Below are positions 57,470 to 60,267 of a stretch of 64,000 bases of DNA, one piece after another. The stretch comes from Alphaproteobacteria bacterium (GTDB lineage Bacteria; Pseudomonadota; Alphaproteobacteria; Caulobacterales; Parvularculaceae). The DNA is taken from positions 1 through 64,000 of the forward strand of contig JAUIMC010000008.1 of NCBI GenBank assembly GCA_030433215.1. Reading direction: 5' to 3'. A program made the position numbers and the translations under genes. The notes below the pieces were generated by a model that worked only from the letters and a program-made list of their open reading frames with translations, was not told the DNA's origin and searched no databases. Every line of letters starts with the position of its first letter. Position 1 is the first letter of the stretch.

Positions 57470-57970
57470 ATGAGCGCAGTGATTCGCATTCTGGGCGTCG
57501 ATCCCGGCTCGGCGGCCACCGGCTGGGGCGTCGTCGACATGGCCGGCGCGCGGCTTTCCTATGTGGCCTCCGGCGTCATCCGCCCGAAGAAAACCGCGGC
57601 CCACGCCGAAAAGCTCAGCGTCATTTTCGAGGGGCTTCAGTCGGTCATCGCCGATTTTGACCCCGGCGAGGCGGCGGTGGAGGAGACGTTCGTCAATGCG
57701 AGCCCGCGCGACGCGCTGGTTTTGGGGCAGGCGCGCGGCGTCGCGCTTCTGGCGCCGGGGCAGGCCGGTTTGAGCGTTGCGGAATACGCCGCGAACTCGG
57801 TGAAGAAATCGGTGGTCGGCAAGGGTCATGCGGACAAGGCCCAGGTCGCGGCCATGGTGAAAGTGCTCTTGCCCAAATGCGGCAAGCTCGCGAGCGATGA
57901 GGCGGACGCGCTCGCGGTCGCGATCTGTCACGCGCATCACGCGGGCATGAGACGGTTGGAGGCTTCGTAA
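57470..57970 (+). CDS. ruvC: Crossover junction endodeoxyribonuclease RuvC
   Basis: A 166-residue Holliday-junction resolvase. Acidic catalytic residues are Asp11 in GVDPGSAATG, Glu71 in AAVEETF, and Asp143/Asp146 in ASDEADALAVAICH. It cuts junctions moved by RuvAB in recombinational repair. It is immediately followed by ruvA (no gap). Confidence 0.95.
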   Translation: MSAVIRILGVDPGSAATGWGVVDMAGARLSYVASGVIRPKKTAAHAEKLSVIFEGLQSVIADFDPGEAAVEETFVNASPRDALVLGQARGVALLAPGQAGLSVAEYAANSVKKSVVGKGHADKAQVAAMVKVLLPKCGKLASDEADALAVAICHAHHAGMRRLEAS

Positions 57971-58603
57971 ATGATCGGCAGGCTGAAGGGTTTGGTCGTC
58001 ACGGTGACGGAAGAAACGGCGCTGATCGACGTCAATGGCGTCGGCTACGAGATCTACGCCGCCCCGCGCGTGTTGCAGAACCTTGCGCCGGGCGAGGAGG
58101 CGATTGTCTCCATCGAAACGCTGGTGCGCGAGGACATGATCCGGCTTTACGGCTTTCCGTCGGAGAATGAGCGTCAGGCCTTCCGGCTGTTGCAGAGCGT
58201 GCAAGGGGTCGGCGCGCGCCATGCGCTCGCGGTGTTGCAGGTCTTGTCGCCGTCGGAGCTTTATGACGCGGTGACGGCGGAAGATGTGACCGCCGTTTCG
58301 CGCGCGCACGGCGTCGGCAAGAAACTCGCCCAGCGTGTGGTTACGGAATTACAGTCGAAAGCAGGAGCGCTCGCCGGCGCCACCGGCGAGGTCTATTCCC
58401 TGGCGGCGCGCAAGAAAGTTTCGGAAGCCGGGTCCGCCGATCCCGTGCTGGCGGCGAAAGCCGACGCGGTCTCGGCGCTCGCCAATCTCGGCTATGACGG
58501 CGTCGAGGCGCGCAAAGCCGTCGCCCGCGCCGCCGAAAGCCTGGATAGTCCCGGCGTCGAAGCGCTGATCAAGGCGGCGCTGAAAGAACTGGCCGCAGCG
58601 TGA
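57971..58603 (+). CDS. ruvA: Holliday junction DNA-binding protein RuvA
   Basis: A 210-residue RuvA. The N-terminal OB fold begins MIGRLKGLVVTVTEETALIDVNGVGYEI, helix-hairpin-helix segments follow (LQSVQGVGARHALAVLQVL and HGVGKKLAQRVVTEL), and the small C-terminal domain contacts RuvB. It tetramerises on four-way junctions. Downstream, the FtsH-N-like gene is inserted before ruvB. Confidence 0.95.
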   Translation: MIGRLKGLVVTVTEETALIDVNGVGYEIYAAPRVLQNLAPGEEAIVSIETLVREDMIRLYGFPSENERQAFRLLQSVQGVGARHALAVLQVLSPSELYDAVTAEDVTAVSRAHGVGKKLAQRVVTELQSKAGALAGATGEVYSLAARKKVSEAGSADPVLAAKADAVSALANLGYDGVEARKAVARAAESLDSPGVEALIKAALKELAAA

Positions 58604-58614
58604 GGGGGTGCTTT

Positions 58615-59115
58615 GTGCAAAAGATTTTACTCTTTGCGGCGGCTCTTTTCTTTCTGTCCGCGCCTGCGTCCGCGCAAGAAGATCAGTCGCCATGGTATGA
58701 ACCTTATGAACAGATTTCCTACAGCGAGCTCAGAACGCTGATTGACAATGGCGAGGTCGATGAAGCCAGAGTGCTGAATGATGGCTGGTGGGTGACGGTA
58801 AAGACGAAAGAGGGGGAATACTTCGATACGAAGGTGACGCCGGAAACCCCGATCGCCGATCATCTTTATGAAGCCGGTATTCCGGTGACGATCGAACATT
58901 ACAACGAAGGATCGGAAGAGGAAGCGGATGATTTGCCGGCTTGGCTTAGCTTGGTCATTAACATCCTTCCTTTGCTTCTGTTTTTGGTGTTTTTTGCCGG
59001 TATAATTTTCCTGTCGCGCAAACAAACGAACGCTTATTACGGCCGTGCGGAGAAGATGCAGGCGGACTTTTTTGAGCGTCTGGAAAAACTGTTGACCGAG
59101 CGCAAAGAAAACTAA
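58615..59115 (+). CDS. FtsH periplasmic-domain-only membrane protein (no ATPase or protease)
   Basis: A 166-residue protein. A signal peptide ([20 protein letters not shown]) precedes a region (about 32-100) with the pattern of the FtsH periplasmic domain: [54 protein letters not shown]. One membrane helix (110-133, [20 protein letters not shown]) and a short charged cytosolic tail (134-166) follow. The AAA ATPase and zinc protease of FtsH are absent. The GTG start at 58615 follows GAGGGGG; an earlier GTG at 58600 is possible. It overlaps ruvB by one base. The gene looks lower in GC than ruvA and ruvB. Function unknown; it may bind or modulate FtsH. Confidence 0.7.
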
Positions 59116-60149
59116 TGGCTGAACCCGCTTACGATAATGACCGGCTGATCGATGGCGAGAGGAAGCCGCAAGACGCCGATGCGGCGCTGCGGCCCAAAAA
59201 GCTCGACGATTTCGTCGGCCAGCCGAGCGCCAAGGACAATCTGCGCGTTTTCGTGCAGGCGGCCCGCGCGCGCGCCGAAGCCCTCGACCATGTGCTCTTT
59301 CATGGGCCCCCGGGGCTCGGCAAGACGACCCTGGCGCAGATCGTCGCCAATGAGCTTGAAGTGAATTTCCGCGCCACCTCGGGCCCGGCTATTACGAAAC
59401 CCGGCGATCTCGCCGCGCTCCTCACCAACTTGGAAGCCGGCGATGTTCTCTTCATCGACGAGATTCACCGCCTCTCGCCCGCGGTTGAGGAAGTGCTCTA
59501 TCCGGCCATGGAAGACTTCGCCCTTGATCTCATCATCGGCGAAGGCCCGGCGGCGCGCTCGGTTCGCATCGATCTGCCGCGCTTCACCCTGATCGGCGCC
59601 ACGACGCGCTCGGGGCTGCTCGCCAAACCCCTGCTCGACCGTTTCGGCATTCCGGTGCGCCTCGATTTCTATTCGGAAAAAGACCTCGCCCACATCGTCG
59701 CGCGCGGGGCCTCTCTGTTGAACGCCGAAATGTCGCCCGACGGCGCCGGAGAGATCGCAAGACGCGCAAGGGGCACGCCGCGCGTCGCCGGGCGTTTGCT
59801 TCGCCGGGTGCGCGACGTCGCAACCGTTGAAGGGGCGGGCGTGATCGACGCGGGCGTCGCCGACAAGGCGCTGAAACGCCTCGAGATCGACAAGCTTGGC
59901 CTCGACCCGCTCGACCGGCGCTATCTTCGTCTGATTGCGGAGCATTTCGGCGGCGGTCCCGTGGGCGTCGAAACCATTGCGGCGGCTTTGGCCGAAGCGC
60001 GCGACGCCGTAGAGGACGTCGTCGAGCCCTTCCTGTTGCAGCAGGGGCTTATACAACGCACGCCCCGCGGGCGCGTGCTCTCTGTCAGCGCCTGGACCCA
60101 TCTGGGTCTCGCCGCGCCGAAGGATGCCTCTTCCGATCTCTTCGACTAA
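59115..60149 (+). CDS. ruvB: Holliday junction branch-migration ATPase RuvB
   Basis: A 344-residue AAA+ motor. It has Walker [14 protein letters not shown], Walker [11 protein letters not shown], sensor [10 protein letters not shown], and the arginine-finger region LLDRFG. The C-terminal winged helix carries [14 protein letters not shown]. It pumps DNA through RuvA-bound junctions. Its ATG shares one base with the stop of the FtsH-N-like gene, so the two are probably translated from the same mRNA. Confidence 0.97.
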
Positions 60150-60155
60150 TTTTTC

Positions 60156-60187
60156 CGCTCATTCCCGCTTTCGCGGGAATGAGCGGG
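60156..60187. repeat. REP-like perfect palindrome
   Basis: CCGCTCATTCCCGC (60156-60169), TTTC loop, GCGGGAATGAGCGG (60174-60187): a perfect 14-bp stem directly after ruvB. It has no downstream T-run, so it looks like a repetitive extragenic palindrome rather than a simple terminator. Confidence 0.75.
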
Positions 60188-60267
60188 CCGGAAGTTGATC
60201 CAATTTAGTCATCATCTGGTGACCATTGCGCCGTATTCTGACGGTTCCATCAGGGGAGGCGCAAGCT

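Follow-up and report, generated by a model that had tools for sequence, protein, structure and literature searches.

The junction between ruvA and ruvB is a hypervariable slot in a clade of four genera (g1, g3, g5 and g6), and one of its several alternative cargoes is a gene, here called X, whose product consists of an FtsH periplasmic-type domain and a membrane helix with neither ATPase nor peptidase. The slot is new and is the more surprising part of the finding, since a hypervariable single-gene slot would not be expected within a conserved recombination-repair operon, and it offers a test bed for how such a slot is filled and emptied. While the FtsH_ext domain is already known, no description of its arrangement as in X, of a bacterial FtsH_ext-only protein, or of the ruvA-ruvB slot was found among the titles and abstracts listed in searches of open-access papers. 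The window, by which we mean the whole 64,000-nucleotide stretch that was analysed, contains X within a ruvC-ruvA-X-ruvB run with the following features, where the gene names ruvC, ruvA and ruvB are presumed, the latter two following the preliminary description and the likeness of the sequences:

57470..57970, + strand: presumed ruvC, which opens the ruvC-ruvA-X-ruvB run (open reading frame)
57971..58603, + strand: presumed ruvA, neighbour of X (open reading frame)
58615..59115, + strand: X, FtsH_ext-only membrane protein of 166 amino acids with a GTG start (open reading frame, Pfam and family search)
58615..58674, + strand: signal-peptide-like N-terminus, residues 1-20, ending in A-S-A, in place of FtsH TM1 (A-x-A in all six X proteins)
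58705..58899, + strand: alpha/beta domain of the FtsH periplasmic type, roughly residues 31-95 (Pfam and structure model)
58939..59019, + strand: predicted membrane helix equivalent to FtsH TM2, about residues 109-135 (FtsH comparison and model)
59020..59112, + strand: C-terminal helical tail of about 31 residues, which replaces the FtsH linker and AAA domain (border set by eye)
59115..60149, + strand: presumed ruvB, whose ATG begins on the final base of the stop codon of X (open reading frame)

The open reading frame of X runs from the GTG at 58615 to the stop codon at 59113-59115, exactly where the preliminary description had placed it. The stop codon overlaps the ATG start of ruvB by one base (TAATG), and a GA-rich stretch lies 5' of the start codon. 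The GC content of X is 49%, as against 66% for both ruvA and ruvB, and its GC3 is 57%, as against 80% and 78%, in line with the lower GC reported earlier. Just 3' of ruvB, at 60150-60190, there is a GC-rich inverted repeat (CTCATTCCCGC...GCGGGAATGAG), which is either terminator-like or a dispersed repeat. A whole-genome search located FtsH_ext at two places on the same contig, X and one ftsH. The latter is complete, lies about 9.3 kb downstream of X in the same orientation and encodes 645 amino acids from its MNGRN start. The genome also contains hflK and an adjacent hflC-like gene.

The Pfam domain FtsH_ext (PF06480) spans residues 4-91 of X with a score of 38.6 bits, above the cut-off of 25.5 (35.6 bits in the whole-genome search); the other Pfam listing, TrbC, is below its cut-off (E 0.036). 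A profile of X has FtsH chains as its top match in the PDB (best E 2.5e-9), and the predicted structure of the window X has the FtsH periplasmic fold, as has that of the least window-like homologue, which itself falls below the Pfam listing. The earlier assignment to the FtsH periplasmic domain is thereby upheld: the predicted fold is not a different one, and none of the six X proteins is fused to another domain. The AAA domain is missing, as had been claimed, with no AAA family listed by Pfam at E values up to 10 and the chain stopping about 31 residues past TM2. Likewise, Pfam lists neither a peptidase (M41) nor an SPFH/Band_7 family for X, NCBIfam lists nothing, and the HExxH motif is missing from the sequence. 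Two membrane helices had been proposed, of which the second stands: it is 61% identical over 28 columns to the TM2 of the FtsH from the same genome, and residues 109-165 form a helix in the structure model. The first hydrophobic stretch, however, comes with an A-x-A motif in all six X proteins and looks from its sequence like a cleavable signal peptide rather than FtsH TM1. The tail is helical in the model and amphipathic beyond 95% of shuffles in three of the six proteins. Within the periplasmic domain, all six have an insertion of two residues and four have G-W-W-V, which points to a changed role for X. In a manual alignment, four of the six proteins have an acidic residue at the place of E. 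coli FtsH position 62.

Searches with a six-row profile of X identified it in 6 of the 62 genomes in the family set: the genome of the window (G000) and G022, G024 and G026 in genus g1, G029 in g3, and G032 in g6. G032 has the same sequence as L004, a MAG record of an uncultured alphaproteobacterium. Other ruvA-X-ruvB loci thus exist. X directly follows ruvA in all six genomes (spacing -4 to 18 bp) and directly precedes ruvB in five (-8 to 1 bp), the exception being G026, where a DUF559 gene separates X from ruvB. No X was seen at any other genomic place in the family search, and the remaining matches listed were open frames of at least 231 amino acids. Among the matches listed, no further X was found in 299 genomes of the order (a set that contains the six known), in 385 of the class, or in 398 of the phylum at E <= 1e-12; these draws overlap, the order and class figures rest on the best part of the matches, and distant relatives can escape a profile of six rows. 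The short frames with FtsH_ext in G623, G545, G678, G679, G067 and G336 were rejected as FtsH cut at a contig end, and the protein matched weakly in G018 is a different one. FtsH_ext is present in 57 and HflK in all 62 of the family genomes, as compared to six with X, so X is dispensable. In G022, G024 and G029, X and ftsH share a contig at a distance of about 9.4-10.4 kb; in G026 and G032 they are on different contigs. The G026 MAG has two copies of ruvA, one on contig C88 (4 kb) with X and DUF559 in the slot, and one on C55 with DUF1508; C88 may be a contaminant. The FtsH frame of G026, on C55, is just 399 amino acids long. A second FtsH_ext match, in a 628-residue frame and additional to the usual FtsH, was seen in a g2 genome (G028:C1:371458-371724).

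Differences from the window X at codon positions 1/2/3 amount to 31/23/62% in G026, 42/33/70% in G022, 53/40/65% in G024, 48/39/66% in G029 and 47/38/69% in G032, so that third positions vary more (62-70%) than first and second positions (23-53%) in all five comparisons. Because of this excess, and because the frames of all six X proteins are open at the same place, X is more than a chance open reading frame. A decaying ftsH fragment without function would fit the low GC, the patchy presence and the fast divergence, but we consider this highly improbable in view of the six open frames with their more variable third positions, the A-x-A motif kept across three genera, and the fold that is predicted even for the least window-like homologue.

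The slot was surveyed in 56 ruvA-ruvB pairs, some of them partial, from 55 of the 62 genomes (G026 twice); the other seven genomes yielded no pair on one stretch. In genera g2, g4 and g7 (19 pairs), at most 7 bp separate ruvA and ruvB, as against 0-1108 bp in g1, g3, g5 and g6 (37 pairs). The two genes had been described as normally adjacent, which does not hold for this clade, where over 100 bp separate them in 24 of the 37 copies and the contents differ. As a control, the ruvC-ruvA spacing was -4 to 0 bp in all 31 clade members of the 37 in which it could be measured. The 24 long slots contain X (six), a DUF1508 protein (four), a DUF559 protein (three), a small membrane protein (three), single orphans (three) or repeat-like sequence only (five), with additional DUF559 genes beside X in one case and beside DUF1508 in another. 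These labels were set by hand, with Pfam run on one example per kind (two for DUF1508) and the others tied to them by translated similarity. The small membrane proteins (L069 of G027, L073 of G011 and L079 of G017) form a family that is found only in the slot, with three of three matches there among the 62 genomes, and the one from G011 has no Pfam match above the cut-off. DUF1508 is also found outside the slot. Where DUF559 precedes ruvB, the 5' end of ruvB is partly repeated upstream of it, perfectly over 76 bp in L080 (G021), over 18 and 20 bp in L123 (G026, C88) and over 22 bp in L096 (G060); no such repeat was found in L068 and L093. These repeats suggest that the DUF559 gene went into the beginning of ruvB and that a duplication accompanied the insertion, leaving ruvB whole.

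A rival explanation, which we regard as unlikely, is that X is an accessory cargo of a swap locus that exchanges small genes between relatives, some of them perhaps involved in conflicts with phages or mobile DNA, and that X persists through this role rather than through housekeeping of FtsH. Consistent with this, the slot labels require 23 changes on the RuvAB tree, similar to shuffled labels, which average 23.3 and need no more changes in 110 of 200 shuffles, and the X label alone requires six changes for six rows. Only the "empty" label is clustered (12 versus 18.5 changes). The nearest row of each X row lacks X, with one weak join (92/43). In the nearest relative (G023, RuvA 94% identical, 185 bp between ruvA and ruvB), no trace of X DNA was found at E <= 1. 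The distances of X and RuvAB are not clearly correlated (r 0.31, with 191 of 720 permutations as high), X has a lower GC content than its neighbours in all six genomes (39-56% versus 59-68% for ruvA and ruvB), and the small membrane-protein family is likewise confined to the slot. However, the same scatter could arise from ancestral presence and many losses, and the RuvAB tree has a poorly resolved backbone, with 17 of its 53 inner branches open. Exchange as a mobile cargo is also at odds with the family search, in which X was seen nowhere but after ruvA, and with the lack of X matches in phages and plasmids. Similarly, a PADLOC scan of seven proteins gave no family for the window X at E up to 0.1, parts of larger models for a DUF559 protein, and a single model, at E 0.026, for one membrane protein.

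To learn more about the origin of X, we compared it with FtsH over 28 TM2 columns, using 26 FtsH rows from the g1-like clade, four from other genera of the family and four from other families. The mean TM2 identity to clade FtsH is 52% in G000, 49% in G026 and 68% in G022, as compared to 27, 25 and 39% to FtsH from other genera, and 21, 25 and 31% to FtsH from other families. The corresponding identities to clade FtsH are 30% in G029, 42% in G024 and 35% in G032, the last being no closer to the clade than to other genera (36%). There is no clade signal in the periplasmic domain, which is 33, 31, 35, 29, 30 and 21% identical to clade FtsH (G000, G026, G022, G029, G024 and G032, respectively), with 36% to other genera in G000. 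Since TM2 in three of the six X proteins is far nearer to clade FtsH than to the FtsH of other families, X looks by sequence like a partial duplicate of ftsH that is old and evolves fast, with TM2 pointing to clade FtsH as the source for these three and the others compatible with it. The proposal of a foreign, acquired insertion is thus probably wrong: acquisition from outside the family is unlikely given the TM2 of these three and the lack of further X in the matches listed for the wider draws and in phages and plasmids. Gene conversion between X and the resident ftsH is not supported, as the FtsH from the same genome ranks 4, 16, 6, 11 and 21 of 34 in similarity to X (five genomes, with G022 unranked). 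In a tree of X and FtsH (43 rows), five X proteins group together, and the G032 X, whose branch is very long, falls among the FtsH rows. The well-supported branches ask for two X-label changes, so that X may have had a second origin (G032), but rows as long as this are easily misplaced in such a tree.

FtsH, which many bacteria need for viability, is controlled by partners that contact its periplasmic and membrane portions. The reading that we tentatively prefer, and that may well be mistaken, is that X is an ATPase-less accessory subunit, which either joins FtsH-HflKC complexes or competes in them. The domain, fold, location, scatter and protein-level constraint of X have computed support, as has the clade-FtsH origin for three of the six. 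For its topology, cleavage, co-expression, binding and effect on proteolysis, we infer the following steps. A partial ftsH duplicate would have been kept as a separate gene, retaining the periplasmic domain and TM2, which are the parts where FtsH subunits pack together and lie under HflK/HflC, with TM1 changed to a signal peptide and the linker, ATPase and peptidase to a short helix. The protein would be exported but stay tethered to the membrane by a single helix, the tail remaining in the cytosol. It could enter FtsH rings, or replace FtsH in the HflKC cage, and thereby lower or redirect FtsH proteolysis. As X lies in the hypervariable slot of the ruv operon, it would be made together with RuvA and RuvB.

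According to the respective papers, the N-domains of E. coli FtsH form hexamers without the motor (4v0b; PMC13097134), HflK Arg191 contacts FtsH residues 62-64 (PMC12048511), deleting the linker that follows TM2 eliminated proteolysis but not the hexamer (PMC7949044), and Gly-poor linkers go with low FtsH activity (PMC10850787). These data on N-domain hexamers, the HflK contact site and the linker, together with the X chain ending in a predicted helix and then nothing, are among the reasons for favouring a subunit of FtsH complexes. The others are the FtsH_ext match and predicted fold of X, the TM2 likeness to clade FtsH in three proteins, the acidic residue aligned with position 62 in four, the hflK and hflC-like genes of this genome, and the helical, partly amphipathic tail. 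Our confidence was lowered by the comparison of X proteins with each other, which does not favour TM2: the closest three (G000, G026 and G022) are 61% identical in the periplasmic domain and 55% in TM2, and all six are 35 and 38% identical, as compared to 57 and 83% between clade FtsH proteins. Among the FtsH proteins themselves, TM2 is thus the better kept part, and its high likeness in X says little about whether a contact has been kept. Further points against the subunit reading are the insertion peculiar to X, the absence of any hint that X is paired with the resident FtsH, the lower TM2 likeness to clade FtsH in the other three X proteins, the missing clade signal in the periplasmic domain, and the dispensability of X. 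Alternatively, and somewhat unlikely in our view, FtsH would be just the ancestor and no longer be touched by X, which would be a one-pass envelope protein, perhaps self-assembling, with a sensing periplasmic domain and a cytosolic helix that binds another partner. The far faster evolution of X (20-54% pairwise identity among the six X proteins versus 72-85% for RuvAB), the periplasmic domain that is 61% identical among the closest three X proteins and 31-35% identical to clade FtsH, the insertion of its own in this domain, and the tail that is partly kept even between the window X and its least similar homologue all agree with such a loss of contact, but the 49-68% mean TM2 identity of the same three proteins to clade FtsH does not. 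A subunit of FtsH complexes could be combined with the slot in a broader and improbable proposal, namely that the ruvA-ruvB junction serves specifically for swapping single genes that are expressed along with the Holliday-junction motor. Its alternative cargoes would be membrane proteins that evolve fast and occur at no other place in the family, among them an ATPase-less FtsH subunit that poisons or retunes FtsH-HflKC. If so, an interchangeable part would couple the expression of recombination repair to membrane proteolysis.

X shares with the N-terminal part of FtsH, an M41 AAA protease, the periplasmic alpha/beta domain and, in three of six proteins, a TM2 similar to that of clade FtsH. It differs in that it lacks the AAA and peptidase domains, has a signal-peptide-like segment instead of TM1 and a predicted helix instead of the Gly-containing linker, and contains the two-residue periplasmic insertion. 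A natural protein with only the periplasmic and membrane parts of FtsH would be a tool to separate assembly, HflKC docking and substrate entry from the motor. HflK/HflC, YccA and lambda CIII are modulators of FtsH, and the proposed effect of X would by analogy be a similar modulation in the membrane. However, HflK/C are SPFH proteins, whereas X is related to FtsH itself. The plant FtsHi pseudo-proteases are, like X, relatives of FtsH without protease activity; they keep the ATPase domain, whereas X has neither this domain nor a protease motif. FtsH2 of P. aeruginosa clone C, described in PMC10850787, is, like X, an extra FtsH relative, and its activity is decided by the segment after TM2, but it is a full protease that was horizontally acquired. 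Four FtsHi proteins form complexes with Ycf2 and FtsH12, as stated in PMC9020784, and the name "FtsH extracellular", as it appears in PMC10158938, denotes a relative of plant FtsHi5.
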